Source: Antedon mediterranea
Taxonomy: Eukaryota; Echinodermata; Crinoidea; Comatulida; Antedonidae
DNA length: 64,000 nucleotides
Reading direction: 5' to 3'
Assembly (NCBI RefSeq): GCF_964355755.1
Contig: NC_092679.1
Span: 18,032,932 to 18,096,931 of the forward strand
Under the pieces are notes generated by a model. The model searched no databases and had not been told where the DNA came from. It saw nothing but the letters and a program-made list of their open reading frames with translations. Position numbers and translations under genes: made by a program. Below are positions 43,273-62,996 of the stretch, piece by piece (the first letter of the stretch is position 1; every line of letters begins with the position of its first letter).

Positions 43273-45387
43273 TCAGTCATGTGGGTCTTTAATATTAGTA
43301 TAAGGCGTGTAAGCATAGCATGTAAGATTATTAATCTTTGATGTTTCAATAGGAATCTCACAGTACAGGTGTGAGTCATTACTACTGATACCTTCAAAGT
43401 CCAAATTTAATGAGCCTGGTTGTGGTGGTGGTGATGCTTCTTTTGCAGTAGTTGGCAAAGGATATGATAGTGTAATGATAGTGTCATTACCTTGTTGTCT
43501 GTTTTCCGTGTTACAGAATTTCGGAGTTGGTTCGTTGCGAAAAATCATACTTTCTTCCAATTTTTGCATTAGGTCTAATCTAGAAATTCCAGATGACAGA
43601 TTTCCTGAAGGGATTTCTGAAGGAAGAATCTTTGTTGACATCCTTGAGTCCAAAGTAGCAATTCCAGGTTCCTTTGAAGGTATTCTTGAGGCATGAGCTC
43701 TAGAAGATCTTGCATCTATAGTTTTTGACCCATTCAGAATTGGTTTCTTAGCCGTTAGTGGTTTTTGCTTTAATGTATTGAAGTGAACACCCAATTCTTG
43801 AAACTTTAGTGGTTGATTGTCAGTGGGAAGTACATTGTTATTGAAAGACAATTTCGTGTCATCATCCATCTTTTCTTTCTGTTTCTCGCTTTCCATACCT
43901 TGAAAAAAATCATCATTGATTTGGTTGTAGACATTTTCTTCATTACAGTTCACAGGTGTTTTTGACAGTATTGTATCTGACTGTTGGATGTTTTGTATTT
44001 CATTATCAATTGAAACTTCTTGGTTTTGGTATTCATCATCTGTGTCTTGAATGCATTCACTACCTTCTGTTTTTTCAATGTCCAGCTTATTGGTGTTTTG
44101 CCCCTTATCATTATCAGCAGCAGCAAAATCGTCATTGATTTGGTTGTAGACATTTTCCTCATCACAGGTTGTAGATGTCTTTGACAGTTTGAGATCTGAT
44201 TTTTGGATGTTTTGAATTTCATTATCATTAAATGCTTGGTTTTCATATTCATCATCTGCATGTTGATTGCATTCTTGCTCATTTTGTGTTTTTTCAATGT
44301 CTAGCTTGATGGGATTTTTCAGCTCAACATTATCAGCACTTGGATCAAATGAATCATTGGTTACATCTGTGGAGTTGTTTGACGATGTTCTAAATTTATA
44401 ACACAGAATTAAAATAACTAGAATCAGTAAGAGGATGCCTACTACTGTAACTACTATGATTTTTATGTAATTTTGTGTAGATTTTTGTGAATTTTCTTCA
44501 ACTTTATCATCTTCTGGTTGAAGAATCTTGTATTCTGCAAATCCATGTACGTCATTAGAAGATGTCACATGACATGTCAACTCACTGTCACTCATTTCAT
44601 CAGTGATGTTCAAGTTGAAATGTGATGTGTTGACAAGTAGATTGGTATTGTCTATTGTCCAGTTGTAAATGCATTCAGAACAATTATGTCCAGTCTTGCA
44701 TTGGAAAACTACCAACTGTCCGATTTTAAGATCATCATTAACAACAATTGTCACTATAATTTTGACTTCAATGGCCTCTAAATAACAACTTTCATCTCTC
44801 TCATTACCATTTAGTGCCATTTGACAGCGAAATATTTTTTTGTTATCCTCCTCCTTGATCAACCATGTGTTTTTACGAGTAATATGAGTACTATTTCTGA
44901 AGTCCACTCCATCCTCTAAAAAGCCTTTCCATCGTAGTGTAGGGTTTAGGTTCATGTGCTCAACTTGGCAAACAGCAGTCATATATTCACCAACAGTATA
45001 ATTGTATCGCTTTGAAAAACAAGACTCTTTTGGAAGAACAGTTAAGTAAGCAATGTTTGATTCCTGGATTAATTCTGTTCCAGAATATACTTCACATTTG
45101 TACTTGCCTGAGTGTGATGTATTTACTTTTGAAAATTGCAACTTAAACACGAATTGTTGTCCTTGTTGTTCTTTTACTAAACTGTCGTCATTCTTTATCC
45201 ATTTAACGTTGTAATCAAGTTCTTTGTCAATGTGACATTTCAATGTGGCATCACCATCTTCAAAAATTGTCACATTCGATAAAGTAACTGTAGTCCCTGA
45301 GGCATTTCCCAACGTAATTGTAGTTATGATGATAAGAGTGATTATAAGGAAAGACATCTTTATTGCTGCCATGAACCAGATGCACAC
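43273..45387 (-). CDS. single-exon Ig-domain receptor 1 with duplicated tail module
   Basis: 704 aa in one exon. Signal peptide about 11-30 (Met11 of KMSFLIITLI is the likelier start). Ig1 about 34-118 (C51, W63, SGKYKC ending C98); Ig2 about 122-214 (C140, W153, C188); Ig3 about 218-288 (C230, W243, C272, plus extra C236 and C239). Membrane helix about 308-330. The 374-aa tail contains a duplicated module (about 362-434 and 435-494), each with DDEYxNQ and ENVYNQINDDF. It ends with LYCEIPI and YTPYTNIKD. YENQ, YQNQ and YTNI fit the pYxN consensus for Grb2-type SH2 domains. Conserved 5' flank as in receptor 4. I know no named family for it; immune or adhesion signalling is inference. Confidence 0.85.
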   Translation of the reverse strand: MCIWFMAAIKMSFLIITLIIITTITLGNASGTTVTLSNVTIFEDGDATLKCHIDKELDYNVKWIKNDDSLVKEQQGQQFVFKLQFSKVNTSHSGKYKCEVYSGTELIQESNIAYLTVLPKESCFSKRYNYTVGEYMTAVCQVEHMNLNPTLRWKGFLEDGVDFRNSTHITRKNTWLIKEEDNKKIFRCQMALNGNERDESCYLEAIEVKIIVTIVVNDDLKIGQLVVFQCKTGHNCSECIYNWTIDNTNLLVNTSHFNLNITDEMSDSELTCHVTSSNDVHGFAEYKILQPEDDKVEENSQKSTQNYIKIIVVTVVGILLLILVILILCYKFRTSSNNSTDVTNDSFDPSADNVELKNPIKLDIEKTQNEQECNQHADDEYENQAFNDNEIQNIQKSDLKLSKTSTTCDEENVYNQINDDFAAADNDKGQNTNKLDIEKTEGSECIQDTDDEYQNQEVSIDNEIQNIQQSDTILSKTPVNCNEENVYNQINDDFFQGMESEKQKEKMDDDTKLSFNNNVLPTDNQPLKFQELGVHFNTLKQKPLTAKKPILNGSKTIDARSSRAHASRIPSKEPGIATLDSRMSTKILPSEIPSGNLSSGISRLDLMQKLEESMIFRNEPTPKFCNTENRQQGNDTIITLSYPLPTTAKEASPPPQPGSLNLDFEGISSNDSHLYCEIPIETSKINNLTCYAYTPYTNIKDPHD
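43906..44304 (-). repeat. tandemly duplicated tail module of receptor 1
   Basis: Two in-frame copies of a 60-73-residue unit: LDIEKT...DDEY-NQ...DNEIQNIQ-SD--LSKT...C-EENVYNQINDDF. The copies differ at many positions, so the duplication is not very recent. Receptor 5 has one full unit only. Confidence 0.85.
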
Positions 45388-45389
45388 AA

Positions 45390-45465
45390 TAGTGTGTCAC
45401 ATTATTACAGAATGGAAAGAATAAAGTAAAGTGGATTATATGATAGAGGGTGCTATTTATGCAAT
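45390..45465 (-). promoter_or_regulatory. conserved 5' block of receptor genes (copy 1)
   Basis: AGTGTGTCACATTATTACAG, AATGGAAAGAATAAAGTAAA, then GATAGAGGGTGCTATTTA. The same order lies before receptor 4 (55,528-55,605) and before remnant 6 (61,787-61,860). Likely promoter or 5' leader. Confidence 0.6.
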
Positions 45466-45479
45466 CATAATAAACATGA

Positions 45480-45745
45480 TTATACTTAAACGACATATGA
45501 AACCAGTTTTATTGAAACATTTACTTTACCTTAATTACAAGATGTATATTTAAGTTTGTTACCATTTTCTGTTCATAATTCACCAAATCTACTTTCCTTT
45601 AAAGTCAACTTAAAATCACACCTTTTCAGATTTTTTATTTACCTTGCTTTATTCTTAAGTGCCCTTTGCTAAATTGTTGAATTAGCGCTATATAAATTTT
45701 TGTTATTATTATTTCAATAAATTGTTTTTGATCATTTTGTAATAT
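45480..45745 (+). mobile_element. receptor 3' block remnant plus LINE fragment
   Basis: ATATGAAACCAGTTTTATTG (45,494-45,513) matches the 3' flank block of the receptors. It runs into TTTAAAGTCAACTTAAAATC...CACCTTTTCAG, the end of a LINE ORF2, and a (TTA)n tail. The same junction occurs at 55,795-56,215, so it was copied by segmental duplication. Confidence 0.7.
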
Positions 45746-46261
45746 GTCAGTTTCCATTTGCTACTATTGGGATGTGATTCCTCGCTCCCCACCCATACAC
45801 AGAATTAATGGTTTCTAGTTCAAGGCAAAGACTGATGACACATCAATTGGCATGACCTACAGTAGTGAGGGCGTCAGTCTTTTTTGTCACAGGTTGTGGT
45901 ACGATTATGAGTTTTTTATTGTGTTTTAGTAGTGGAATTCCCGGGCTTCATACCACTCAAGAGTACACAAGGCGCTTTAAAAAAATGAAATTCAATATAC
46001 AATATCTGGCTTAATAATACGCAATGTCTTTGGAAGGTCACCCCTTGTTGCATCAGATGGTCAGATGTTGCATATTTAAGCTAACATTTGATATTGTTGT
46101 CTCTGAAGGTTTCCCCAGTCTAATTGTAGTTTTTTTATTTATTATAACTTTTATTTTGATACGTATGTACTGTGCACTGTTGTTCATTCAACTGTAATAA
46201 GCATCTCTTTTGGTTATAATGGTACACCTTAAAAGGTAGCATCATCATATTCAAGAACTGA
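45746..46261. other. inter-receptor DNA with receptor footprint
   Basis: 45,750-45,870 matches 56,215-56,340 (CAGTTTCCATTTGCTACTAT...ACCCATACACAGAATTAATG). 45,948-46,045 is the dispersed repeat also seen at 30,876. At 46,098-46,175 a scrap of receptor 5' coding and flank (TTTCCCCAGTCTAATTGTAG, then TATTATAACTTTTATTTTGA) survives. Confidence 0.6.
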
Positions 46262-46890
46262 TATAATCAATCAATCAATCAATCAAATTAACATTTATTT
46301 CTTCCGCAGTAAAATAACAACAAATATCCAATGTAAATTGTAATATGAAGAAAGAGGGAAAAACTCAAAAAGTAACGCCAGATGAAAAATAGAAAACTAT
46401 TAATCAAAAGACCTTGTGACAAGCAAGCCCTAAATGATAAATATAAATAAGAATTACAAATTAATTTACGTACACAAACACACAGACAGGGCAAGAAAAA
46501 AGAAGAAAAAAGGAACAAACGAACATGGGATATAATATAAAAGCTGAGGATGGTATAAGCAACATTTTATAAATCATATTTTGACAAAAGAAATTTTTTG
46601 GCTTTATAAGAGAAAATTTTCCTGGAGGGGGTTGCAATGATTTCAGGAGGAAGGTCATTATATAATTTAACACCGCTATAACGGACGTTGTGTTGGATCA
46701 ACGTAAGTTTGGGCTGAGGAAGATGAAGTTCTAGTAGAATAGGAGTGAAAATCTGAGGAAGAAGCATAAATTGGAGGGAAGAAGAGAATGCAAAGCTTCG
46801 TAAACAAAGATATAAAAATGGAACAATCTCTGTGCAGGCCACTGAGTTGTCAAATGCATCTTTAAAAAACCTTACCAACCGTACTGGTGG
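46262..46890 (-). mobile_element. LINE ORF2 C-terminal fragment
   Basis: The minus strand at 46,567-46,878 encodes LTLIQHNVRYSGVKLYNDLP then FSYKAKKFLLSKYDL, the common LINE C-terminal motif. The 3' end is a (GATT)n microsatellite at 46,262-46,285. Confidence 0.7.
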
Positions 46891-47061
46891 CTATGGCCCT
46901 GATATTACTTCAGCATATTTGTGCCCTAGCCCTTATTTTGTCCTCAAATCATACAGTTAAAGTTAAACTGACATTAAGGCTTTAGAATGTTCGTGAAGAA
47001 GTCAACACTAAAAATCATTCCTATAAATATTTAACATAATCAACAATAGCACAGCTAATTA

Positions 47062-48452
47062 TCAGAATTTGTTGTTATACATTGCTTCAGACTTCTTCTC
47101 TTTTACATGTCCATAGGCATATGCATATTCAGGGATAGCTTCAAATGTGGTTTGTGTTTTTTCAGTAGTTTCTTGTGCATCTTTTATTGGTAGAGATGTT
47201 TGGTAGAAAGGGGATTCTTCCACCTCTAAATATATTGCAGTTTGGGCTGGTTGGTTAAAATTTGCATATGCATATTCAGGATCTTTATTCAACATGGCAC
47301 TGTGTTGACACCGAATCATATTCTGGTGGGAAAGAGTTTGTAATAAGATTTGACATGTCTTTACTTGTACACATTTTTTTCTTTTAGTTTTAGACATTCT
47401 ATAGATAATTATTGTTATAATGATAATGAGTATTAAAGCACATGCAACAATGATGCATAAATATATGGTATCCACTTTACTCCTTTCATATGGCTCATGT
47501 GTAACTGTAGATATAGAAGTAGCTTCTTCACCTGTTTCATTGTTTTCACTGTTATCAACTAGTATCACATATGAATCTGATCCATGTACATCATTAGAAG
47601 ATGTCACATGACATGTCAGCACACTGTTAATCATTCTATCAGTGATGTTCAAGTTTAGTTGTGATGTGTTACCCAGGTGTATTTGCATTCTGGACAACTG
47701 TGTCCAGTTTTGCAGTTGAATGAGGATAACTTTCCAACTTTAGAATTGCCACATGTAACAATTGTCACTTTTATCTGAACATTTATTAATACTTCACAGT
47801 TTCCCTTTTCTAGGTCTTCAAGGTGGTGATGTGTCCCCTGATTTGTCACATTTAAGATACATGCAAAATGCAATAGATTAAACATTTCTTTAACCAAAAA
47901 CTCATTTTCTAAACTCAAGTGGGTTGCATTGTTGTTTCTTTTCAAAGAAATATTTGTGTTAACATTCCATTGCAGTCTTTGAGAATCAGTAGAAAATCCT
48001 TCAATGATCTTTGAGGCACAGTACAAAATCAGCACATCTCCAACTATGTAGAATGCTTTGTTTGATTGACAAGTTGGTGTAGGAAAGGCAACCACATTAA
48101 GTACAGCAGGCTTAGAAGAATTTAGAATGATGTTGGAACTATTGATGGCATGGCAGCTGTACTCTCCAGAATCTAACAATGTGACTTCTGGTATACTGAG
48201 TTTACATGAGTCATTCTCCTCATCAAAATCTACTTGAATCTTACTTGTTCCAGGATGTAGCGTGTTGCTGTCATGTTTCCAAAAACAAGTAAAATCTCGT
48301 TTCCAATCTGAAAACACACAAAGGAATTCAGCTGTTCCTTCTTCTAGAATATTCTTATCTGTTGGTTGATAAAAAAGATGAAGATCAAAGCTAATTACTG
48401 AACTTAACAGTAAAAAGATCGTGGAAGATGTTGATACAAATTTTAAATTCAT
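47062..48452 (-). pseudogene. Ig receptor 2, broken by a 26-bp deletion
   Basis: The coding sequence runs 48,452 to about 47,680 in one frame and about 47,680 to 47,062 in another. Signal peptide MNLKFVSTSSTIFLLLSS; Ig1 (FLCVFSDWKRDFTCFWKH ... DSGEYSCHA); Ig2; Ig3 up to CPECKYTW, where the frame is lost. The second frame resumes at GNTSQLNLNITD and includes a membrane helix (IYLCIIVACALILIIIITII) and a short tail (YANF, IYLEV, VYQTSL-like, EYAYAYG, MYNNKF). Against receptor 3, 26 bp are missing between two ACTGG copies. A second, in-frame deletion removes the SEYLVPNV tail segment. Promoter-like start and stop are otherwise intact. One lesion could be polymorphic or an assembly error. Confidence 0.8.
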
Positions 48453-50655
48453 TTTTTAATATAGCAGAGCAATAATACAGTGGACAACAGTTTCCTTTTG
48501 TATACACTGGTTATTTGAATCTATTTTATTTGATTTATAGCCTTGATTTACATCTAAGAACACAACTGAATTTTGTAGGCATTTTCAACCAAAGTTGGTT
48601 TCATTTTCATTTTGCAATCCGCTGAAATAATAATGTTAATGGCCAGCCATAAGCTTGAAAAAAAGTAAATAACTAAACCAAAATTTCCATTAATGCTGAA
48701 TCAATTTCAGCCACTGTGAATGCAAAATTAAGCAAATATAGTTTTTATTAGAATGATATTCTATTCTAATTTTAATGTATTTGTTTATTTTGTATGAATC
48801 AGTCATTTTTAAACACAAATTAATTTGTTCTGATCTTTTTTGACAGTGCCATGAGCAATGATTGATACAAGTGATTTTTTATGTAATCCTTATTAAAAGA
48901 CAAAGTGTTTTTACAAATATCAGATCAACTAAATTACACTTGATTCAAAATGTCACAGGTCACTATAAGACGTTCGTCGGCTTTTTTAGAGGAACCATTC
49001 AATTATTTTTTTAAATTGCATTACATTTACAACCAGATTTGTTGTGCACAAAATCTTATTGAAACATTATATTCCTATAGCATTATTTAAAAAAATTGAG
49101 GCCAATAATTATTTTAGATATGTTGATTTGAAAGTGAGTTAGCCTTTTTATTTTTAATAATATTACAAGAAATTATTGAGAGTCACAATTTAATTTGGTC
49201 ATAAAAGTTTTTTCAACAAAATTCAACCTTGCATCTTCAGCTACAGACTTCTTCTCTTTTACGTGATCATATGCATACTATATTACATAGCCTATGTAAA
49301 TACGTGAACGTGATTGGTTTAAACTGCATCACATGACTACCGCTGCGAGGATCGTAAATCGTATATATCCTCGTGTACGATGATATTGACTGGGTAATTG
49401 TCGCGTAATTATCGTGTCCCTGTCATTAAACATAAAATCCAGCAAATTTTCGAGTACGATGATATTGACTGTGTAATTTTCGTGTGGCAACACTCGCATT
49501 TGGGGATGAATAAACAAAAGTTATCTACTGGGTCTTGAAATCGCGATGAAATTTTCACTCCATCACAAGACAACGCTTCATGCGCTGTGCCACAGAACTT
49601 GCTTAAAGAAATTAATCAACTAAACTATTTAAACTATGCATACATAGCGCCCTTATTTGTTATTAGTCCTCCCTAGATGTGATGAAAGACCGTTTGTGAT
49701 TGGTTAATACTCACGGTAGTAGTTAGTTATGCGCGACGTGGCGAACATCCGGTGATTCGGCTCGAAGAAGACGAATTATTCGGCCTACCTGATTATAATA
49801 TTATTGTTAATGTAGGCTTATTGATGGAAATTCTTCTGTTAATTTAAACGACCTAGACCTAAGTGAATATTTTATTGCCAAGGAATCATTTAATTAGTAA
49901 TTATCTGTATATTATTCTTCACAACGTAAGGTGAATTCAACGCCTAACTACTGTAGGCAGGCTTATTACAATACAAAGGAGGCCTAGCTACACCCGACCC
50001 AGCAGTAGATATTCAACTTGTTGTTGGCAATGTAATATCACATTAACAGATATCGCCTTTTATATCGGTAAAATATAAGATTTGACATCCCCTTGGGAAT
50101 GATATTTTTTTCGATGGAATATATTTCCCGAAATGTTAAGGGAAATATATTCTATCGAACAAAATATCATTCCTAAGGGGATGTCAAATCTTATATTTAA
50201 CCTCTAAGTCTAAGCAGGCAAAATCTGTATAATATTCAGGGATATGTAGTTTCTTGTGCATCTTTTATTGGTAGAGATATTTGGTAGGTTGCATATGCAT
50301 ATGAATATTCATAACATTGAAACTACATAAATGACATACGAAACCAAATTTTTGTTTTATGAACATTTTTATTTATATACAATAAAACAAGTGTTTTTGA
50401 ACAAATACAAAGCAACAAAGAGAGTAATATTAAATAGGAACATTATGAAAATAATTATGACTAATAACTATTTCTGATTTGTACTATAGCTATATTGCTT
50501 CAAAATGTTTGTGACCTAGCCCTTATTTTGACCTCAAATCGTACAGTTAAAGTTCAACTGACACTAAAAGTTTTAGAATGTTCTTGAAAAAGTCAACAGT
50601 AGAAATCAGTCCTCTATATATTTAACATCATCATTAACAATGGCACAGCTAATTA
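48453..50655. other. inter-receptor DNA with tail remnants and a hairpin
   Basis: Mostly AT-rich. 49,236-49,278 matches the receptor tail end (CAGACTTCTTCTCTTTTACG). 50,232-50,275 matches another piece of tail coding (TAGTTTCTTGTGCATCTTTT). 50,325-50,395 is the shared 3' flank block (GACATACGAAACCAAATTTT). The hairpin is at 50,071-50,198. A GC-richer, promoter-like stretch lies at 49,640-49,800 (AGCGCCCTTATTTG, then GCGCGACGTGGCG), but no gene was found with it. Confidence 0.55.
50071..50198. repeat. near-perfect 59-bp inverted repeat (hairpin)
   Basis: The arms 50,071-50,129 and 50,140-50,198 pair with three mismatches around a 10-base loop. The left arm begins AAATATAAGATTTGACATCC; the right arm ends GGATGTCAAATCTTATATTT. 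It could be a foldback MITE or a source of hairpin RNA. Confidence 0.88.
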
Positions 50656-52195
50656 TCAGAATTTGTTATTATACATTGCTTCAGACTTCTTCTCTTTTAC
50701 ATGTCCATAGGCATATGCATATTCAGGGATAGCTTCAAATGTGGTTTGTGTTTTTTCAGTAGTTTCTTGTGCATCTTTTATTGGTAGAGATGTTTGGTAG
50801 ACAGGGGATTCTCCCACCTCTAAATATATTTCAGTTTGGGCTGGTTGGTTACAATTTGTATATGTATCATTATCTTTATTCAATATGGCACTGTGTTGAC
50901 AACGAATCATATTCTGGTGTGAAAGTGTTTGTAATGAGATTTGTTCTGTGGATGAAACATTTGGTACTAGATATTCTGATGACATTGAATCTTGTTTTAC
51001 CACTTCATCTGTTGTGGTGAAATCATCTGGACTACACTGAGTTGAGATGTCTTTATTTCTACACCTTTTTTTCACTTTCTTTCGTTTAGTTTTAGACATT
51101 CTATAGTTAATTATTGCTATAATGATAATGAGTATTAAAGCACATGCACTGATGATGTATACATAGATTGTGGCGATAGAATTAACTTCTTCATCTGTCT
51201 CTTTTTGTTTACCACTGTTTGTCTGGCTGCAGTTATTGTCATTAGTGTTATCAGGTTGCATCACATATGAATCTGATCCGTGTACATCATTAGGAGATGT
51301 CACATGACATGTCAGTAGGCTGCCAATCATTCCATCAGTGATGTTCAAGTTGAGTTGTGATGTGTTGCCCAGTTGACCTGTAATGTTCATTGTCCAGTTG
51401 TATTTGCATTCTGGACAACTGTGTCCAGTCTTGCAGTTGAATGAGGATAACTTTCCAACTGTAGAATTGCCACATGCAACAATTGTCACTTTTATCTGAA
51501 CATTTATTAATACTTGGCAGTTTTCCTTTTCTAGGTCTTCAATGTGGTGTTTCCCCTGATTTGTCACATTTAAGTTACAAACAAAATGCAATATTAAACA
51601 TTTCTTTAACTAAAAACTCGTTTTCTAAACTCAAGTGGGTTGCATTGTTGTTTCTTTTCATATTTATAGAAGAAATATTTTTGTAAACATTCCATTGCAG
51701 TCTTTGAGAATCAGTAGAAAATCCTTCACTAATCTTTGAGGTACAGTACAAAATCAACACATCTCCAACCATGTAAAATGCTTTGTTTGATTGACAAGTT
51801 GATGTAGGAAAGGCAACCACATTAAGTACAGCAGGCTTGGAAGACTTTAGAATGATGTTTGAACTATTGATGGCATGGCAGCTGTACTCTCCAGAATCTA
51901 ACAATGTCACTTCTGGTATACTGAGTTTACATGTGTGTCTCTCCTCATCAAAATCTACTTGAATCTTACTTGTTCCAGGATGTAGTGTCTTGCTGTTATG
52001 TTTCCAAAAACAAGTCAAATCTGGTTTCCAATCTGAAAACACACAAAGGAATTCAGCTGTTTCTTCTTCTAGTGTATTTTTATCTTTTGGTTCATAAAGA
52101 AGATGAAGGTCAAAGCTAGTTGCAAAACTCAGCAATAAAACTATGGTTAAACTTAAAAGATGTTTTGATGCAGTTTTCTGAAACATGTTGATCAT
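50656..52195 (-). pseudogene. Ig receptor 3, broken by a 2-nt frameshift
   Basis: It reads 52,195 to about 51,594, then shifts frame and continues to 50,656. Signal peptide about residues 8-28; Ig1 (EFLCVFSDWKPDLTCFWKH...DSGEYSCHAINS); Ig2 starting CQSNKAFYMVGD and carrying the lesion at EMFN; Ig3 (CKTGHSCPECKYNWTM...LTCHVTSPNDVHG); membrane helix (IYVYIISACALILIIIIAII); basic juxtamembrane KTKRKKVKKRCRNKD. Tail with SEYLVPNV, YTNCNQ, IYLEV, VYQTSL, EYAYAYGHV and terminal MYNNKF. Receptor 2 has two more bases at the shift site, restoring frame. Everything else is intact, so this may be a young pseudogene, a null allele or a read error. Confidence 0.8.
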
Positions 52196-54084
52196 GCAAT
52201 CAATTTATAAATTGATTGTTTTCCAGTTATACAATTAATTTACTTTTGAGTTTTATAATGTTTAATGAAGCAGTAATTATATTTTCTGTTTCAATTTCAT
52301 AGATTGGCGGCCAATAAATCATTGAACTAATTGTCACTGATTGATTGATAGGTGAATGTGAAATGTGATGATACATTATTTCAAGTTCAAGTAATTAAAA
52401 AATAATGTGTTACGTATAGGGCATACTAAATTTCTCTGTGTGTGTGGGATTATATTATTTGTGGAGGGTGTGAAGATTGTTTGTTGTTTCAATGATTAAC
52501 CCCACACCACATAAAACCCATGAGTTGTAATGCCTACAATTTTGTTTTACTTTATCTGCTAGCTTTGTCACCTCAGTTTAGCAATTTGGTTTTTGTAATT
52601 AAAACGTTGTCAATAATTATTGACATATTTTTCTCTAATTGAAGTACTGTACCACGTTTATTCAAGGAAGGTGTTTAATTTTGGGTATTAGTCAAACTTC
52701 CTTGACCTGAAAAAAAAAACACAATATCAAGAAATTATAAAATACAGTACAAATTATTAAAAAACCTGCCACACAATATTGTAGTACTGTATAAAATAAC
52801 ACATTTCTATTTATAGTAGAATTTTACAATATGTCTCCGAACAATAAACGCCTGGGCACTTATTCGAATAAATACGGTATAGTTTCATACCTTTTTTCTG
52901 AGTGGTGGATCAATGAATTTTAAATAGAAAGATTTACTATTTATAAAGTAATAGTAAGTGCTAATGAACCGTGTAGGTAAGGTTTCGGTGAAATATCTTG
53001 TCAACTAATTGTCTGTCAGCCAATTGTCTGTTGCGAAATCATTTTCGACGAAATGTCCTGTTAGTGAAATGTCCAGTCGGCGATTTGTCCGGTTGCCTAA
53101 ATGTCTGTCAACTAAATGGCTTTTGACAAAATGTCTAAGAGTACCGTTTATTCAAGGAGGTCCCGGGCATTTATTTAAAGTGGGGTGTTTATTCAAATAA
53201 ATATGGTATATGGTACTTATTCAAGAACAATGGATGTAGGTAAAGGGTCACTATTGTACATCTCGCATTTAAATATTGTCTCTAGTTTCAGAATAATGAC
53301 TCAATTTATTGAAACAATAACTATGGTATTAAAATACATACATATTTATTTATTACGTTTTTAATACAAAAAGGTTACTTAAACTCGAACACAGTAAAAC
53401 AAAAGTTTAATTTGGGTCAGTGATTAAGTATGGACTTATACTGTTATAGCTTCTCCTGCATTTAAATGATTTCCACTTATTCCTATTGTGTTTGTAACTG
53501 TCATAATAATAATAATAATAATAATATGTATTTATTTAGCACGTACACAAGGCATGTTAACATGACTGTACATTGGTTTTGGTATGGTCGCCTGTGCGTT
53601 GTCTAAATTAGGTCTGTACCATTTATTAGTGTATGTACTACATATACTAATAAAATAATGATACTCGTAAAGTTTTTTGGAGGATTAAAAATAGCTCCTT
53701 GCCAAGTAGATGGGGGTTTTCCCTTTTATTACGCACCAAGTATCCCAGCATCATGTGCAAAGTTACGTGCAATGATACGATACAATGAGAAAATTTAAGA
53801 AATTTACACCTCTAGATGGCTGGAAATTGCACTCATCATAATCAACACTTCAGAAAATACATATTCCATAAAATATTGAGGGGACCATGACCCCATAAAA
53901 AATAACATTGAAACTACAGAAATGACATACAAAACCAAATTTTTGTTTTATGAACAATTTTATTATATACGAAACAAGTGTTTGTATACGAAAACTACAA
54001 CGCAACAAAAGTATTTAAAATAAATTAAGATAGCATAAAAGTAGTACATCTAATCATCAATTTCATAATTTATGTAAAATTTGA
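52196..54084. other. inter-receptor DNA
   Basis: No gene. 52,832-53,212 has repeats: paired TTATTCAAATAAATA-type ends, and at 52,983-53,137 a degenerate roughly 20-bp unit around CGAAATGTCCTGT. A (TAA)n microsatellite lies at 53,503-53,526. 53,560-54,084 is the 3' flank of receptor 4, nearly identical to 56,590-57,142 (for example GATTAAAAATAGCTCCTTG), with an AATAAA signal on the minus strand near 53,959. Confidence 0.6.
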
Positions 54085-55524
54085 CTAGTTAATATACATA
54101 GTGTCAGAGATTGCTTCAGCTATAGACTTCTTTTCTTTTACATGTCCATAGGCATATGCATATTCAGGGATATCTTCAAATGTGGCTTGTGTTTTTCCAG
54201 TAGTTTCTTGTGCATCATTTATTGGTAGAGAGGTTTGGTAGACAGGGGATTCTTCCATCTGTAAGTGTATTGCAGTTTGGGCTGGTTGGTTAAAATTTGC
54301 ATATGAATATTCATGATCTTTATTCAACATGGCACTATGATGACAACGAATCATATTCTGGTGTGAAAGAGTTTGTAATGAGATTTGTTCTGTAGATGAA
54401 ACATTTGGTACTAGATATTCTGATGGCATTAGCTCCACCACTTCATCTGTTTTGGTGAAATCATCTGGACTACATTGGGTTGACATGTCTTTATTTCTAT
54501 ACCCCTTTTTCTCTTTATTTCTTTTAGTTTTAAACTTTTTGTAGATAATAATTTTTATAATAATAATGACTATTAAAGCACACGTACCAATGATGTATAG
54601 AAAGGCATCATCCAGTTTTTCACCTATTTTTTTGTTTTTATTATCAGTATTATCTTCTGGTTGAATCTTGTATTTTGAAAATCCATGTACATCATTAGAA
54701 GATGTCACATGACATTGCAACACACTGTCAGTCATTTCATCAGTGATGTTCAAATTGAGTTGTGATGTGTTGCCCAGTAGATTGGTATTGTCTTTTGTCC
54801 AGTTGTATTTGCATTCAGAACAATTATGTCCAGTTTTACATTGAAAAACAGATATCTCTCCAATTTGAAGATTATCATTGGCAACAATTGTCACGTTGAT
54901 TACGACTTCAATGGCCTTAAAATCACAGATTTCATCTATCTTATGAACATGTAGTGTCATTTGACATGAAAATTCCCCCTTATCATCTTCTTCTGTAATC
55001 AACCATGTGTTTTTGCGAGTAATATGAGTACTATTTCTGAAGTCTTCCCCGTCCTCTGAAAAGCCTATCCATCGTAGTGTAGGGTTTAGGTTCATGTGTT
55101 CAACTTGACAGACAGCAGTCATATATTCACCAACAGTATAAGTGGGTATTTTTGAAAAACAAGACTGTTTTGGAAGAACAGTCAGGTAGGCGATGTCAGA
55201 TTCCTGGATTAATTCTGTTTCAAAGTAAACTTTACATTTGTACTTGCCCGAGTGTGTTGGCTTCACTTTTGAAAATTCCAATTTAAACTGTATTTGTCGC
55301 CCTTCTTGTTCTTTGAATACGCTGTCTTCATTTTTTATCCATTCAACCTTGTAATATTGTACTTTGCCATTAATAATACATTTTAATGTTTCTTCTTCAT
55401 CTTCAAGAACTGTGACATTTGATATTGTAGTCGTTGATGTTTTTCCCAGTCTAATTGTAGTCATGATGATAATGGTAATTATAAGGAAAGACATCTTTTT
55501 AGCTACCATGAAAAAGGTGCACAC
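54085..55524 (-). CDS. single-exon Ig-domain receptor 4
   Basis: 479 aa in one exon. Signal peptide about 11-30 (KMSFLIITIIIMTTIRLG). Ig1 about 33-118 (C49, W62, SGKYKC to C97); Ig2 about 122-214 (C139, W152, C187); Ig3 about 217-287 (C229, C235, C238, W242, C271). Membrane helix about 307-328, then a basic KFKTKRNKEKKGYRNKD. Tail tyrosines: SEYLVP (Y370), SYANF (Y408), PVYQTSL (Y429), EYAYAYG (455-459) and C-terminal MYIN (Y477). YANF and YIN fit pYxN. The ectodomain is like receptors 1 and 5, while the helix and tail are like receptors 2 and 3. The 5' flank block is shared with receptor 1 and the 3' flank with receptor 5. Intact, probably functional. Confidence 0.87.
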   Translation of the reverse strand: MCTFFMVAKKMSFLIITIIIMTTIRLGKTSTTTISNVTVLEDEEETLKCIINGKVQYYKVEWIKNEDSVFKEQEGRQIQFKLEFSKVKPTHSGKYKCKVYFETELIQESDIAYLTVLPKQSCFSKIPTYTVGEYMTAVCQVEHMNLNPTLRWIGFSEDGEDFRNSTHITRKNTWLITEEDDKGEFSCQMTLHVHKIDEICDFKAIEVVINVTIVANDNLQIGEISVFQCKTGHNCSECKYNWTKDNTNLLGNTSQLNLNITDEMTDSVLQCHVTSSNDVHGFSKYKIQPEDNTDNKNKKIGEKLDDAFLYIIGTCALIVIIIIKIIIYKKFKTKRNKEKKGYRNKDMSTQCSPDDFTKTDEVVELMPSEYLVPNVSSTEQISLQTLSHQNMIRCHHSAMLNKDHEYSYANFNQPAQTAIHLQMEESPVYQTSLPINDAQETTGKTQATFEDIPEYAYAYGHVKEKKSIAEAISDTMYIN

Positions 55525-55527
55525 AGC

Positions 55528-55605
55528 AGTGTGTCACATAACAGAATGGAAAGCAAAAAAGTAAAGTAGATACTGTAGATAGAGGGTGCTATTTACACTG
55601 GCTAT
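55528..55605 (-). promoter_or_regulatory. conserved 5' block of receptor genes (copy 2)
   Basis: GTGTGTCACATAACAGAATG, GAAAGCAAAAAAGTAAAGTA, TAGAGGGTGCTATTTACAC. Same order and spacing as before receptor 1. Confidence 0.6.
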
Positions 55606-55794
55606 AATAATGGACATTGTAATATATTCATATTAGCAATTTAACGACTGGATTAGAGACGAATAAAGGAGTTCTACAAGATGGCTGAACATCAGCACAT
55701 GGTCTAATTTTTTTCTTAGTAAAATACTTAGTGTTATCATTCATTCTAAGAGCACAATATATAACAGACATGTTGATACCTGTTGTTGATGAAA

Positions 55795-56340
55795 TATGAA
55801 ACCAGATTTATTGAAACATTTATTTCCTTAATTACAAGACGTATATTTAAGTTCTAGGTACAAAAAGCAATATAAAAACGGTATTGACAAATGTTACAAC
55901 TTGCAAATGACTACTCATCAGCTTTGTGCATCCTCTAAACATCTATTGACAGTTCCATCTATTCAGCATAAAACCAATACACCAATACATGGTCAACATG
56001 CCTTTCAAGCCCCTCTTGTGTGGAACTCATTACCATTTTATGTTTGTAACCTACTTTTCTTTAAAGTCAATTTAAAATCACATCTTTTTCAGGTTTTTTA
56101 TTTAGAAGCTTGCGTTATTTTCAAGTGCCTTGCTAAGTTTTTGAATTTGATATATACATTTCTGTTATTATTATTATTATTATTCCAATAAATTTGTTTT
56201 TGATCATTTTGTAATATGTCAGTTTCCATTTGCTACTATTGGGATGAGATTCCTCGCTTTCCACCCATACACAGAATTAATGGTTTCTAATTCAAGGCGC
56301 TGACTGACGACACATTGATTGACCTGACATAGTTTGGCCG
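55795..56340 (+). mobile_element. LINE ORF2 C-terminal fragment in duplicated inter-receptor block
   Basis: 55,901-56,110 encodes THQLCASSKHLLTVPSIQ then HAFQAPLVWNSLPFYV and FKVNLKSHLFQ, the WNSLP...FK..LK..LF end of CR1/L2-type LINEs. A (TTA)n tail follows at about 56,163-56,183. The whole block, including flanks, parallels 45,480-45,870. Confidence 0.72.
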
Positions 56341-57142
56341 TCCGTCGTTTTTTTTGTCACTTTTATTTATTACGTAATATGCAATACTACTGCATACACA
56401 GACTTAGTAAATTGTAAATTTTTCTGTTAAACCTGTACTGCAACTACTGTATATTCAATGGCGCAGATCTGTTTCGAAAGGTGAGGTTGTGGTACGATTA
56501 TGCACATGTTTTAGTAGGGGATTTCCTGGGCTTCATCAGCGAAAACGTCCGAAGAGAATCTGATGAAGTGTAGGCATAGCTCGATGTCAGACAGCAATTT
56601 GACTGTACATTGGTATGGTCGCCTGTGTGCCATTAAATTAGGTCTGTACCATTTATTAGTGTATATTTGGGAGAAAAATGCATTCTTAATTCATACATTA
56701 ATCAAAATAATGATACTGGTAATTAAATGTTTTTCAAGAGGATTAAAAATAGCTCCTTGTCAAGTAGATGGGGGTTTTCCCTTTATTACGCACCCAGTAT
56801 TCCAGTATCATGTGCAAAGTTACGTGCAAAGATACGATACAATGAGAAAATTTAGGAAAATTACACCTCTAGATGGCTGGAAATTGCACCCATCATAATC
56901 AACACTTCAGCAAATACATATTCCATAAAATATTGAGGGGACCATGACCCCTAAAAAATAACATTGAAACTAGAGAAATGACATACAAAACCAAATTTTT
57001 GATTTATGAACAATTTTATTATATACAAAACAAGTGTTTGTACACGAAAACTACAACGCAACAAAAGCATTTAACATAAATTAACATAGCATAAAAGTAG
57101 TACATCTAATCATCAATTTCATAATATATATGTAAAATTTGA
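56341..57142. other. receptor 5 3' flank (duplicated)
   Basis: 56,590-57,142 parallels 53,560-54,084 almost base for base (GACTGTACATTGGTATGGTC, CACCTCTAGATGGCTGGAAA, TTCATAATATATATGTAAAA). AATAAA on the minus strand near 57,015. No gene. Confidence 0.65.
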
Positions 57143-58852
57143 CTAGTTAATATACATAGTGTCAGAGATTGCTTCAGCTATAGAATTCTTCTCTTTTACA
57201 TGTCCATAGGCATATGCATATTCAGGGTTATCTTCATATGAAGGTTGATTTTTTTCAGTAGTTTCTTGTGCATCATTTATTGGTAGAGAGGTTTGGTAGA
57301 CAGGGGATTCTTCCATCTGTAAGTGTATTGCAGTTTGGGCTAGTTGGTTAAAATGTGAATATTCATGATTTTTATTCAAAATAGCACCAGGATTCTCTCT
57401 GTTGTGATAATGACAACTGCAGTGACAAAGAATCCTTTCTCGGTGTGACAGAGTTTGTAATGAGATGCGTTTTGTACATGAAACATTTGGTACTAGATAT
57501 TCTGATGGCATTAGCTCCACCACTCCACTGCCTTCTGTTTTTTCAATGTCCAGCTTATTGGTATTTTGCCCCTTATCATTATCAGCAGCAGCAAAATCGT
57601 CATTGATTTGGTTGTAGACATTTTCCTCATCACAGGCTGCAGATGTCTTTGACAGTTTGAGATCTGATTGAGGAGTCTTTTGTATTTCATTATCAATTAA
57701 TGCTTGGTTTTCATATTCATCATCATCTGCATGTTGATTGCATTCCAGCTCTTGTGTTGTTACAATGTCTTGCTTAATGGGATTTTTCAGCTCAACATTA
57801 TCAGCACTTGGATCACATGAATCATTGGTTACATCTGTGGAGTTGTTTGATGATGTTCTAAATTTAAAACACAGAATTACAATAACTAGTAGAATCAGTA
57901 AGAGGATGCCTGCTACTGTAACTAATATGATTATTATTATGTAATTTTGTTCAGGTTTTTGTGGTTTGTCTTCAACTTTATCATCTCCTGGTCCAAGAAT
58001 CCTGTATTCTGCAAATCCATGTACATCATTATAAGATGTCACATGACACTTCAACACACTGTCAGTCATTTTATCAGTGATGTTCAAATAAAGTTGTGAT
58101 GTGTTGCTCAATAGATTAGTATTATCCATTGTCCAGTTGTATTTGCATTCAGAACAATTATGTCCAGTCTTACATTGAAAAACAGATATCTCTCCAATTT
58201 TAAGATCATCTTTGGGAACAATTGTCACTTTAATCTTGATGTGTATGTCATTTAAATAACAATTATTCCCATCATTACCCAAAATATTTAGTGTCATTTT
58301 ACAACGAAATATCATTTCATTATCTTTCTCCGTAATCAGCCATGTGTTTGTCCGAATCATATGAGTACTATTTCTGAAGTCCACCCCATCCTCTAAAAAG
58401 TCTTTCCATCGTAGTGTAGGGTTTAGGTTCATGTGTTCCACTTGGCAGACAGCAGTCATGTTATCACCAACATTATAAGTGGATGGATTTGAATAACAAG
58501 ACTGTTTTGGAAGAACAGTGAGATAAGCAATGTTGGATTCTTTGACAAAGCTTGGTCCAGCATAAACTTTACATTTGTACTCACCCGAGTCTGATGGATT
58601 CACATTTTGAAATTTCAAAATAAACTCATCTGTAACAATAAACTCTAGTCCTTGTTGTTCTTCAACTACACCTTCATCAGTTTTTATCCATTCAACCCAG
58701 TAATTGTCTTTTTTGTTAACGATGCAATTTAAGGTAGCAGATTTACCCTCAAGAAATGTTTTATTTTCTAATGTAACTGAGGCCTTTCCTAGGCTAATTG
58801 TAGTTAGGAAGAAAGGAATAAAGAAAAAGAAGGACATCCTGTCTAGCATCAC
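57143..58852 (-). CDS. single-exon Ig-domain receptor 5, chimeric tail
   Basis: 569 aa in one exon. Signal peptide about 6-25 (MSFFFFIPFFLTTISLGKAS); Met6 is an alternative start. Ig1 about 26-114 (C43, W55, SGEYKC to C94); Ig2 about 119-211 (C136, W149, C184); Ig3 about 215-286 (C227, C233, C236, W240, C269). Membrane helix about 305-328. Tail 329-442 matches receptor 1 (NNSTDVTND, DDEYENQ, ENVYNQINDDF, LDIEKTEGS). From GVVELMPSEYLVPN (443) to the end it matches receptor 4. An inserted CHYHNRENPGAIL (480-492) is shared only with remnant 7. The C-terminus is MYIN. Its 5' flank lacks the block shared by receptors 1 and 4. Intact, apparently formed by recombination between paralogues. Confidence 0.87.
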   Translation of the reverse strand: MMLDRMSFFFFIPFFLTTISLGKASVTLENKTFLEGKSATLNCIVNKKDNYWVEWIKTDEGVVEEQQGLEFIVTDEFILKFQNVNPSDSGEYKCKVYAGPSFVKESNIAYLTVLPKQSCYSNPSTYNVGDNMTAVCQVEHMNLNPTLRWKDFLEDGVDFRNSTHMIRTNTWLITEKDNEMIFRCKMTLNILGNDGNNCYLNDIHIKIKVTIVPKDDLKIGEISVFQCKTGHNCSECKYNWTMDNTNLLSNTSQLYLNITDKMTDSVLKCHVTSYNDVHGFAEYRILGPGDDKVEDKPQKPEQNYIIIIILVTVAGILLLILLVIVILCFKFRTSSNNSTDVTNDSCDPSADNVELKNPIKQDIVTTQELECNQHADDDEYENQALIDNEIQKTPQSDLKLSKTSAACDEENVYNQINDDFAAADNDKGQNTNKLDIEKTEGSGVVELMPSEYLVPNVSCTKRISLQTLSHRERILCHCSCHYHNRENPGAILNKNHEYSHFNQLAQTAIHLQMEESPVYQTSLPINDAQETTEKNQPSYEDNPEYAYAYGHVKEKNSIAEAISDTMYIN

Positions 58853-59425
58853 TGTTTTTCATTTCTAAAGAAAAATTAAATTGACTAAGAGTCACTTACG
58901 CTTTCTATTCTATAGCGGGCAGTATATTATGAAAAAAGCTATTATAATGTTTATGTTTAAAATCTAAACGTGATAACTATAGAAACCAGATAATAGAAAT
59001 CTATTTGAAGTGTCAAAAATCAGGGCAGGCGGAAAAGTGTAATTCTACTTTACCCCGAAAATTGAATAAATTCAAATAAAGGCATGCTACCTTTCATAGT
59101 TTTCGGGTCATGAAAAATGTAAGGCAAGCGGGATTTATTCCTCCCACTCTACTTTACCCCTCTATAATTTTTTTCTCGATCTTACAGCATTTTTCCCCAA
59201 AAAATAATGGGAGGGAGGATCGAGTCTTTATCTTTAATGTTTTATATTTTATTTTAATTTTTTTTTATTTCACATCTAACAATTAGGTTTTGTGTAATAC
59301 TTGGGTAGTGATGATATTTTTTGAAGAATGTTTTTGATATTCAGAAAACCTGTCTAAGTCAATAGAATCAACTTTCAAACATGCACCAAGCAATATAATC
59401 AAACACACTAGTTTAGTGTAGTTTA
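58853..59425. other. receptor 5 upstream region
   Basis: AT-rich; no conserved receptor 5' block is visible, so the promoter of receptor 5 differs. A CCTCCC/GGGAGG inverted pair occurs near 59,145-59,220. Confidence 0.4.
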
Positions 59426-59695
59426 TTCTGCAAATCCATGTACATCATTAGAAGATGTCACATGACATGTCAACACACTGTCAGTCATTTCATGATGTTC
59501 AAGTAGAGTTGTGATGTGTTTCCCAGTAAATTGTTATTGATCAGTTGTATATGCATTCAGAACAATTATGTCCAGTCTTGCATTGGAAAACAATTTGAAG
59601 GTTTTCATTGGCAACAATTGTCACTTTAATTTTAACTGCAATGGCCTCTAAATAACAAGTTTCGTCTTTCTCAATACCATTTACGCTCGTATTCT
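59425..59695 (-). pseudogene. Ig receptor remnant 6, Ig3 domain
   Basis: The minus strand matches the Ig3 domain of receptors 1, 4 and 5: LEAIAVKI..., CKTGHNCSECIY, LTCHVTSSNDVHGFAE. It has small deletions around the tryptophan region and in NITDEM that break the frame. It ends abruptly at 59,695 against unrelated sequence and is probably the 3' part of the gene whose 5' end lies at 61,611-61,793. Confidence 0.75.
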
Positions 59696-60880
59696 TAAGC
59701 CGGACTTTAGTCGTAGTTCGAAGTTCGACTTGAAAAAGTCGTAGTTCGAGTTATTACTTCAAATTCGATTCATAAACGAAGTAGTCAAAGTTTGCAGTTC
59801 GACTTAATGAAGTCGAGCTTTTAGTCGAGTTGCACACGTCTGGGTAATAAAGGCTATACATTGGCCAATGACAGGAGAGTATTTGAGGAGCAGACAAAAT
59901 TTTGCGCATTGATATCACTTTCCATTTTCTTACAAAACTGTTTACGCATCACGCAACATGAAAAATAATTTGAATTGTTAATTATTAGAACAAGATCAGT
60001 ATTAATTTAACAGTGAAGTACTTTTGATTAACAACAAACAAAGTCTTCAAAATATATTTAGGAACCATGGCGGTACGGTAATTTCATATTTTCTAGGCCT
60101 CCAACAAAGCAGTGGCGTATCCAGTGGGGGGGCCGGGGGATTTTGATTTGGTATCCGTCGGCAAACAAAGGTGCCGAGGAAAAAAATAAAGTTAGGCAAA
60201 TAAGAATAAACTATTATTCTGACAATAATTGAACTGTAAACATAATTCTTTTGAGTGTTTGTTTATTTACATATCATATCATTCACTTCAGATCAACTAT
60301 TTTTTATTTTCATTACATCTAACCAAACACGTAAAAAATGTGGTTAAAATATCTTATCATCTAGCACGTACGGCCGTACGCGGTAGATTGTTTACCCAAA
60401 AGTCTTTGAACGGTCCGGTGACCTTACCCTATTCAACCTTGTTTTTTCCGTTGAGCCTCTCATGACCTGGGATTTGTATGTCTTCCTACGCTAAGATTAT
60501 ATAGTTCCACATGCCATGTGCTTTTTTTTCTAAGATATATTTATTATAAGTGCCAAAAAACCCGTTTTTTTCTCGATATGTGGCCTTTATTATTCAAATT
60601 TTTTAAAGAAAAAGCACACATAGAATATAACAATTTTGATTGGTGGATGCGAATCACCCGCAGCGGAATGTTTTTTCTCTCGCGCGTATACCATGAAGTC
60701 ACATGGTCTCTTTGGTGAGTTAGAGCAATGAATTTGTCCGAATTCCATTAAGTAAACAACTTTATATATTTTATAAGCATTTAATAACATGTTTTATTGA
60801 TCTTTCCAATGTTGATATATAAAATAAATTACTAAAAAACGTAATTATATGTAATTATTTTAGCCAAAAATGGCGTAGTT
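59695..60880. other. insertion-rich segment splitting remnant 6
   Basis: 59,700-59,850 is a block of AGTCGTAGTTCGA/TTCGACTTAATGAAGTCGA repeats with internal inverted pairs. 60,112-60,170 starts AGTGGCGTATCCAGTGGGGG, a terminus typical of hAT-type repeats. The rest is AT-rich. Nothing coding is supported. Confidence 0.5.
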
Positions 60881-60884
60881 AATA

Positions 60885-61505
60885 GAATTGTTTATTTATT
60901 TATTTATTTATTTATTTCCTTTATTGCATCAAGTAAGCAGTGATGAAGTTGACATAAATATAATAGTAAATATGTAAACACATAGTATAACACAGTCCAA
61001 ACAAGTAATACTAAAATATATCATAGTCCACAAATCAGTCTTTCAATGGCCATCATAGTACATCCAGTAACACAAACCAATAGAGGTTCACAATTTGCTT
61101 ATCATAACTCAGTATACTGATCATTCACCAATCATTGAAAACTCCGTGGAAAGTAATGAAGTTTTTTGTGCGTTGTGTCCGGACTTTGGGGAGGGTGAAC
61201 GATCTAACGCGTCGGAGCTGATGGTTGTGTGTGGGAGGTTTAGGTAAGAGAGAGTGTAATATATGATCTTCTTTTTTCATTTATCAAAGAATTTTCTTGA
61301 CAACTTCTCGCGGCGTTCAGATAGAGTGATGATGTTAAGGTATCTGCGGGTATCAGCATACGAGGTACCATCGGGGCATATTATGTTACACGCTCTTCTT
61401 TGGACATGTTCGATTTGGTCAGATTGTGCTTTGGATAAACTCGGGGACCAAACAGCACAGGCATATTCAACTGTCAATTCAATTGTCGACTGAGGCTGCA
61501 AATTG
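60885..61505 (-). mobile_element. LINE ORF2 fragment with (TAAA)n tail
   Basis: 61,277-61,501 on the minus strand encodes VEYACAVWSPSLSKAQSDQI, EHVQRRACNIICPDG and LSERREKLSRKFFDK, the end of a LINE reverse-transcriptase ORF. Its 3' end carries (TAAA)n, seen on the plus strand as TTTATTTATTTATTTA at about 60,890-60,915. Confidence 0.8.
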
Positions 61506-61610
61506 TTTTACTTCTTTCGTGGCTAAAAACGATCATTTTCGGCGATGTTTTAGACCCTATATTTCGAAAACTACAAGTCAGATTTTCGTAATTCTTTCTT
61601 TATTGTAATA

Positions 61611-61793
61611 TTAATACAACATACTAACTAAACTAAAAAAATTTAATGTAGCAGGTTTATGCTCAAGAACTGTCACATTTGATAATGTATCTGTAGTCTC
61701 CGAGGTTTTTCCAAGTCTAATTGTAGTTATGATGATAAGGGTAATTATAAGGAAAGGCATCTTTTTAGCTGCCATGAACCAACAGTGTGTCAC
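61611..61793 (-). pseudogene. Ig receptor remnant 6, signal peptide end
   Basis: It encodes MAAKKMPFLIITLIIITTIR, LGKTSETTDTLSNVTVLEHK and PATLNF, matching the first 50 residues of receptors 1 and 4, then runs into unrelated sequence. The conserved 5' block lies directly upstream (61,787-61,860). Confidence 0.8.
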
Positions 61794-61860
61794 ATTACAG
61801 AATGGAAAGAATAAAGTAAAAATAGATTATAAATGATAGAGGGTGCTATTTACACAAGCT
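61787..61860 (-). promoter_or_regulatory. conserved 5' block of receptor genes (copy 3)
   Basis: CAGTGTGTCACATTACAGAA, TGGAAAGAATAAAGTAAAAA, GATAGAGGGTGCTATTTACA. It is kept beside a dead gene, so it cannot be used alone as proof of function. Confidence 0.55.
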
Positions 61861-62573
61861 ATAGTAATTTACATGATGATACTTTTTATTATAACTTTTA
61901 TTTTGATATGTACGCATTGCTGTAACAATTGAAACTATGTAAATGACTTATGATACCAGATTTATGTTTTTATAAACATTTTTATTGCAAAAAAAAGTAG
62001 TGGTATATATTTATTTCCTTAATTACAAGATGCTTAAACTTGTTAAAATTTCACTTACATGTTATGATATTAACTTCAAGGAACACAAAGAAATCTAAAA
62101 ACAATATGGGAATGTTACAGCCTAAATCACTACTCAATAAATACATTTTGTACGCTATACGGCACGCACTGATGACATATTATAATAAATTAGAACATGT
62201 CTTGCGCAGTGGAATTTTTCAGTGAGCTGCTAGCTCACGTTCGGCACACACTTGAGGAAAATGACTCATATGACAAAAAAATATTAAAATGATAGATATT
62301 TTCCTCACCGGCACGCACGCGTGGCTGATTCCTCACAAATTGTCCCATGCACACTGAGAAAAGAAGTGTTATTCATGCCAGTTAACTCAGCCGATAGCTA
62401 TAGTGCGCCGGGCTTCAGATCGTACAGTTTCACTTTAAAAACTTTATATTCTTGAAAAAGTTACCCAAATGTAAAAATCAATCTATATATTTAAAAAATT
62501 CTTAAAAGAGTACAGCTTAAACAAGTACAGCTAATAATTGTAATTGAATCATTTTATTACGTGTCAAATTTGA
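61861..62573. other. 3' flank of remnant 7 and spacer
   Basis: 61,930-61,990 is the shared receptor 3' block (ATGATACCAGATTTATGTTT, AACATTTTTATT). The rest is unremarkable; no gene. Confidence 0.5.
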
Positions 62574-62996
62574 CTAGTTATTATACATTGTGTCAAAGTC
62601 AGAGATGGCTTCAGCTGCTATAGACTTCTTCTCTTTTACATGTCCATAGGCATATGCATATTCAGGGTTATCTTCAGATGAAGTGTTGAGTTTTTCCAGT
62701 AGTTTCTTGTGCATTTTGTTTTGGTAGACAGGGGATTCTTTCACCTGTAAGTGCATTACTATTTGGACTGGTTGGTTAAAATTTGCATATGCATATGAAT
62801 ATTCATGACCTGAATTCAAAATAGCACCAGGATTCTCTCTGTTGTGATAATGACAACTGTGCTGACAAAGACAATGTGAAAGAGTTTGTAAAGGAATTTG
62901 TTCTGTACATGAAACATTTGGTACTAGATATTCTGATGGCATTATCTCCACCACTTCATCTGTTTTGGTGAAATCATCTGGACTACATTGGGTCAT
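62574..62996 (-). pseudogene. Ig receptor remnant 7, cytoplasmic tail only
   Basis: 140 codons, open from TQCSPDDFTKTDEVVEIMPS to the stop. It keeps SEYLVPNV, CHYHNRENPGAILN (as in receptor 5), YAYANFNQ, PVYQ, EYAYAYGHVKEKKS and C-terminal MYNN. Homology stops at 62,996 beside unrelated GC-richer DNA. The ectodomain and membrane helix are missing, so the ATG at 62,996 is accidental. The tyrosine motifs are still intact, implying recent loss or a retained coding role not visible here. Confidence 0.75.

Follow-up and report, generated by a model that had tools for sequence, protein, structure and literature searches.

Apparently intronless immunoglobulin receptors in tandem arrays across the genome of Antedon mediterranea

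The FcoR proteins of the Botryllus fuhc locus, in the available part of their description, combine one V-type and two C2-type immunoglobulin (Ig) domains with a single transmembrane (TM) segment and a long tail bearing a core Y-x-x-I/L/V motif; a sushi domain and alternative splicing also belong to that description (PMC12065747). Here we analyse a 64-kb window of Antedon mediterranea contig NC_092679.1. The window is the whole stretch of DNA under study; coordinates refer to it, and those called "continued" carry the same numbering past its end. Its minus strand holds, at 43273-62999, a tandem array of Ig receptors that extends beyond the window: three intact copies, each a single open reading frame (ORF), two copies broken by one frameshift apiece, and three fragments. 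As far as the available part of the FcoR description goes, both groups are invertebrate three-Ig receptors with one TM segment, a long tail and Y-x-x-I/L/V cores, but the receptors described here are single-exon and occupy far more loci. No sushi family was matched in 16 family members at E ≤ 0.01, which sets them apart from the FcoRs.

Hydractinia Alr receptors, known for high polymorphism and for a response governed by shared alleles, are cnidarian and lie in one genomic region, whereas the present receptors occupy 41 places on 8 contigs and look intronless; the host genome also carries an ordered deuterostome-type Hox cluster, which argues against Alr membership. The Toll-like receptors of sea urchins form a very large, largely intronless, tandem immune family of an ambulacrarian. 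They share this genomic layout with the present family, but are LRR-TIR proteins where ours carry Ig domains. Clustered protocadherins are built of cadherin repeats, and each variable ectodomain, encoded in a single exon, is joined by splicing to shared constant exons. Their inner part is kept alike, as here, whereas each gene here has its own tail. SIRP, nectin/PVR and CADM proteins, multi-exon in vertebrates, match the family collinearly over three Ig domains: a 16-member profile aligns about 280 positions, covering all three domains, with CADM4 (38-316), PVR (35-323) and SIRP-alpha (33-316). The profile search proposed by the first-pass annotation of this DNA, made from the sequence alone, returned these three-Ig chains as similar proteins, not as demonstrated orthologues. 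To our knowledge, large Ig receptor repertoires outside vertebrates occur in few animals and arise mostly through splicing or allelic polymorphism. No intronless Ig receptor family appeared among the titles and abstract openings listed from the open-licence PMC literature, and the available part of a paper on acorn-worm immunity (PMC10210618) names no such family.

Single-exon receptors in the window and across the genome

Each intact window receptor has a hydrophobic N-terminus and one membrane helix. Pfam models match Ig1 of the window copies with E-values down to 1.9e-13, Ig2 and Ig3 being weak or unscored, and the three intact copies exceed the Pfam cut-offs for Ig_3 and I-set. At E ≤ 0.01, Ig_3, ig and I-set were matched in all of the 16 family members, placing them in the immunoglobulin superfamily; the CD80-like C2-set_2 domain (PF08205), looked for in Ig2, was matched in 7 of the 16, and the window copies have no Pfam match to it. 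The count of three domains in the window copies follows from their conserved cysteines and the collinear match of the 16-member profile. The design proposed in the first-pass annotation (signal peptide, three Ig domains, one TM helix and a long tail in a single exon) is thus borne out by ORFs, cysteines and profile. Open frames of at least 482 codons are expected about 5e-13 times per 64 kb of random DNA of the window's composition. By eye, no acceptor common to the receptor copies was found before their ATGs, single copies having acceptor-like sequences. Judged from the DNA, the coding part of the receptors looks intronless; introns in the 5' untranslated region (UTR) are possible.

The annotation had set this design against the usual exon-per-domain structure of Ig genes, and the contrast is real within the host genome. 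In a 9.9-kb piece of contig C8, Ig domains lie one by one in short frames of their own. Of the 93 matches listed by a search with C2-set_2, 39 belong to frames of 340 aa or more, 3 to frames of intermediate length and 51 to frames no longer than 170 aa, C8 accounting for 45 of these 51; the C8 contrast is drawn from all 93 matches of this search. Most of the 45 short-frame C8 matches fall, on both strands, at C8:4.70-5.78 Mb, where another large Ig family has each domain in its own exon. Since the same genome contains such ordinary Ig genes, the single-exon state marks the receptor superfamily.

We searched the host genome (354.4 Mb in 18 contigs of one assembly), all locus counts being lower bounds. 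A single window protein used as query gave at least 39 matches, and many of these fall on other contigs within long frames. Eleven matched places were read as DNA: ten have the same one-exon design, with 372 to about 690 aa and some in tight arrays, and the eleventh, at C7:3.66 Mb, is a relative with one phase-2 GT-AG intron in Ig1. Further searches returned at least 95, 60, 93, 64 and 106 matches. Merging all searches save the one queried with the one-intron relative (106 matches) gave at least 250 loci. At least 189 of them, in 41 places on 8 contigs, have frames of 340 aa or more, and in 171 of the 189 the match contains no stop. Among the 189 are the one-intron C7 locus, 18 loci whose match is interrupted by stops, and loci matched by C2-set_2 alone (for example on C9 and at C11:5.56-5.60 Mb) that are possibly not all full receptors, architecture having been checked on the ORFs of the places read as DNA and of three arrays. 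About 11 more loci, recognised by eye in the one-intron-relative search, stand outside the 189. The census took in 292 of 351 matches; the other 59 were 40 second pieces or repeats and 19 fragments below 340 aa, which leaves the 189 unaffected and the short-frame counts incomplete. The largest block, at C3:18.70-18.91 Mb, comprises 52 loci in head-to-head orientation: 25 minus-strand loci make up its first half and 27 plus-strand loci its second; these half-blocks may reflect an inversion or a shared control region. The window array is a minor part of a genome-wide superfamily of about 190 or more loci.

Common origin was examined on 52 ectodomains, namely 15 from window, array and single-locus members and 37 from three fully read arrays (A, B and C, with 10, 18 and 9 genes); the set omits L012 and broken copies, except the R64 ectodomain, of which the tail alone is cut. 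Eight cysteines recur, two in Ig1, four in Ig2 and two in Ig3: six columns are filled in 52 of 52 sequences and two in 51, the exception being L015. The second Ig2 pair probably forms an extra disulphide and is the best family mark, because the Ig fold does not need it. Members were found by similarity, which biases the set toward shared residues, although not obviously toward this pair. Arrays A, B and C and three members of the contig-6 array are each monophyletic (FastTree support 0.997-1.0); the window set becomes monophyletic only when L005, 5.5 Mb away, is included (support 0.996).

No multi-exon parent was seen: of the 106 matches to the one-intron relative, 105 fall in frames of 340 aa or longer and the remaining one in a frame of 273 aa, in a search that scored 106 of 352 candidates and in which short exons match more weakly, so that a parent could escape it. 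The nearest intron-bearing candidate is the one-intron relative on C7. The C8 Ig genes were rejected as parent, since two C2-set_2 exons read there (L036) lack the second cysteine pair. The retrocopy founder suggested in the first-pass annotation is therefore not established; the founder may have arisen by intron loss, as a retrocopy with later intron gain, or as an ancient single-exon gene.

Divergence along the gene and exchange between neighbours

Genes within arrays A, B and C are closely spaced on the same strand, and their divergence was computed per domain by the NG86 method. Median synonymous divergence (dS) is 1.00, 1.05 and 1.35 in Ig1 (A, B and C, in this order throughout), the B value being low because saturated pairs were left out (22 of 153), and 0.13, 0.25 and 0.11 in the tail. 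A sliding scan located the drop in dS at the Ig1/Ig2 boundary in A, at the TM segment in B and about Ig2/Ig3 in C. Identity over the final 450 coding bases is 92, 82 and 96%. Flanks of 300 bases on the 5' and 3' sides average 29-51% identity (21-25% when shuffled), with single pairs reaching 93-98%. The tails are strongly constrained: the pooled ratio of nonsynonymous to synonymous differences (pN/pS) is 0.09, 0.16 and 0.08 there, and 0.47, 0.42 and 0.62 in Ig1. Only the stalk comes near 1, in A and C (0.92 and 1.01). Diversifying selection was rejected as the overall force on Ig1, because a domain-wide pN/pS of 0.42-0.62 indicates net constraint.

Low dS in one part of the gene and high dS in another, seen in all three arrays (37 genes), is the pattern of concerted evolution. 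Since whole-gene duplication alone should give uniform dS along the gene, we infer gene conversion of the inner half: partial conversion would keep the tails alike and leave the outer domains different. Constraint on synonymous sites is a less likely cause.

The window array was read copy by copy, all receptor features being on the minus strand. W43 (43273-45396) is an intact 707-aa ORF with a signal peptide, three Ig domains, a TM segment and a 376-aa tail that contains a duplicated tyrosine-motif unit, a tandem 219-bp repeat at 43906-44307. Two frameshifted copies share a second type of ectodomain; one spans 47062-48455 (ORFs 47655-48455 and 47062-47739) and the other 50656-52204 (ORFs 51575-52204 and 50656-51609). 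W54 (54085-55533, 482 aa, 152-aa tail) and W57 (57143-58858, 571 aa, 246-aa tail) are intact and have the same parts as W43. By tblastn and genome search, an Ig3 fragment with internal stops is spread over three frames at 59426-59669. An Ig1 fragment, interrupted by four in-frame stops, was detected in the same two ways at about 61515-61784, the tblastn match covering about 61590-61775. The ORF at 62574-62999 encodes the distal tail (141 aa) of a further receptor, R64; the R64 ectodomain is found past the window edge, at 64284-65369 (continued). Repeat and sequence analysis revealed a 1304-bp element, running from 62994 to 64000 and on to 64297 (continued), that interrupts the R64 tail; it is bounded by perfect terminal inverted repeats of 34 bp and by the 7-bp target duplication ACCCAAT. 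The first-pass count of three intact, two nearly intact and at least three fragmentary copies on one strand agrees with the ORFs and tblastn, with one amendment: the third of the fragments, the tail at 62574-62999, belongs to R64 as its 3' end and is no independent scrap.

Past the window, Ig receptors continue for about 14.6 kb and related tails for about 25 kb. The neighbouring DNA contains another split copy (72251-73816), the intact receptor R75 (75080-76681), which has an unrelated tail, and a divergent receptor, R77 (77406-78596), all in continued coordinates. After R77 come five tandem TM-plus-tail frames (79827-89265, continued; contig C10) with no Ig domain detected, the last having a tail that resembles those of the window receptors. 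All five share an acceptor-like site, AATTACAGAGTTGTA, about 30 bases before the ATG, and on this ground appear to be either the final exons of spliced genes or genes whose 5' UTR contains an intron. Among four of the five, pN/pS is 0.38-0.78.

Some of these copies are mosaics. W57 is 81% identical to W43 up to extract position 1775 and 89% identical to W54 from 1774, thus joining a W43-like ectodomain, TM segment and proximal tail to a distal tail and 3' flank of the W54 kind. The ectodomains of W57 and R64 are 92% identical but their TM segments and tails are not, R64 being W54-like there. R75 and its neighbour are 88% identical over the ectodomain, with no match further on. These module switches in W57, R64 and R75 indicate that ectodomains and tails have recombined among neighbours. 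Window copies have pN/pS values mostly of 0.4-0.7, a weaker constraint than in the array tails. Live, broken and scrapped copies are present, as expected of the birth-and-death family described in the annotation, but that account is incomplete, because tail gene conversion and module swaps have to be added to it.

Tails, probable function and rival readings

Tyrosine motifs were counted in 17 chosen tails (among them three from the contig-6 array and one tail-only frame) and compared with 2000 shuffles; related tails are not independent, kinship was ignored, and the counts take in a few membrane-edge tyrosines. Yxx[ILV] is enriched (32 against 17.8 ± 3.8 expected, reached by 1 of 2000 shuffles), as is YxxP (17 against 6.5 ± 2.4, reached by none). 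Both are motifs of SH2 partners. L015 has LTYADI and LDYATV near its C-terminus. The label of receptors with immunoreceptor tyrosine-based inhibition motifs (ITIM) was tried and rejected, the strict motif being not significantly commoner than chance in these tails.

We consider with moderate confidence that the superfamily is a germline-encoded recognition repertoire of type I receptors, probably serving immune or self/non-self recognition. The DNA suggests that the receptors would be expressed at the cell surface and would signal, and the likeness to Botryllus FcoR and Hydractinia Alr makes an immune or self/non-self role likely. Ig1 would be the variable outer domain, held away from the membrane by Ig3 and by Ig2 with its second cysteine pair, and phosphorylated tail tyrosines would recruit SH2 proteins. 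The repertoire would grow as genes duplicate locally in tandem; partial conversion between neighbouring genes would homogenise the inner half and tail while Ig1 stays divergent, and exchange between neighbours would swap tails. With one uninterrupted exon per gene, ectodomain and tail can recombine in one tract. More tentatively, gene conversion may be the diversity engine of these 190 or more, nearly all one-exon, Ig receptors, fixing the signalling half and reshuffling tails as outer domains vary. If so, each cell might carry one or few receptors, and the family would parallel, with Ig domains, the intronless repertoires of chemoreceptors or protocadherins and would join splicing (Dscam) and somatic rearrangement as a third solution. 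Some 190 single-exon loci, divergent in their outer domains and conserved in their tails, in what is probably an ambulacrarian would mean a further route to diverse recognition in the branch that neighbours the chordates. The predictions are one transcript per ORF, binding of SH2 proteins by the tails, and copy-number polymorphism.

Several observations weigh against a recognition repertoire. Ig1 has pN/pS below 1, with no overall positive selection, which an arms race might have shown; nonsynonymous divergence (dN) exceeds dS in 0 of 45, 0 of 153 and 1 of 36 pairs in A, B and C (the 22 saturated pairs of the 153 counted as not exceeding). In the 17 tails, YxN is not significantly enriched (259 of 2000 shuffles reach its count), and the strict ITIM, [SIVL]xYxx[ILV], occurs 8 times in 5 tails, a count reached by 164 of 2000 shuffles. 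Some members (L005, L010) have very short tails. AlphaFold2 models of the three intact window ectodomains have a mean predicted local distance difference test score (pLDDT) of 38.8, too low to show the extra disulphide. Expression, ligands and polymorphism are all viewed here through the DNA of a single assembly.

A cell-adhesion or wiring code, in which the proteins bind each other or partners during development as do IgLON, DIP/Dpr and clustered protocadherins, is the strongest rival, although we hold it clearly less probable. The nearest solved relatives by sequence include the adhesion proteins NCAM, neurotrimin, Robo, SYG-2 and CADM4, Ig1 is under net purifying selection, and a variable ectodomain with a homogenised inner part is the protocadherin pattern. 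Many copies, frameshifts, fragments and copy-to-copy tail changes are, on the other hand, more usual in immune families, and different arrays carry quite different tails. It seems improbable that these are reproductive or chemosensory ligand receptors for gamete or conspecific recognition, in a large intronless family like that of olfactory receptors: intronless tandem families are typical of chemoreceptors, but a single-pass Ig receptor with a tyrosine-motif tail matches no chemoreceptor type known to us. Still harder to accept is a population of mostly dead, functionless retrocopies or duplicates moved by mobile elements. Broken copies, the terminal-inverted-repeat element within one gene, and flanks much less alike than the coding DNA would fit it, but 171 of the 189 loci are stop-free over the match, tail pN/pS is 0.08-0.16, and the same-strand, close spacing in arrays A, B and C points to tandem duplication. 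Exon cassettes of one alternatively spliced, Dscam-like gene, which tandem homologous units on one strand might suggest, can be dismissed, since each intact unit is a complete ORF with its own start, hydrophobic N-terminus, TM segment, tail and stop, and no shared acceptor is seen by eye before the ATGs.

The window and genome hold other features. An endonuclease-bearing frame of a non-LTR (long terminal repeat) retrotransposon lies at 1659-4334 (minus); its N-terminal part holds GDIELNPGP, which we take to be a 2A-like ribosome-skipping motif of the kind known from sea urchin and other retrotransposons. At 11899-12765 (plus) is a single-exon protein kinase frame (Pkinase, E 2.4e-67), presumably akin to testis-specific TSSK kinases. 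Mitochondrial carrier frames flank the receptor array, one at 17697-18398 (minus) with a Mito_carr match and the second, recognised by eye, at 99907-100620 (plus, continued). A unit of roughly 40 bp is repeated in tandem at 36586-36777 and again at 37792-37893, the two arrays lying about 1 kb apart. The Hox cluster occupies C2:7.83-8.21 Mb; from their homeodomains we take its genes to be Hox1-8, Hox9/10 and three posterior genes, one on the opposite strand. Taken by itself, the cluster leans toward a hemichordate or another ambulacrarian host. A search of the genome for COX1 found no match; one for GH6 found none either, but its control was silent too, so that it does not speak against a tunicate. 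For Ptychodera, the available part of PMC11175523 describes an inversion of Hox13b and Hox13c, and it gives 23 ancestral groups for echinoderms and ambulacrarians, a number that the 18 contigs here do not fit.

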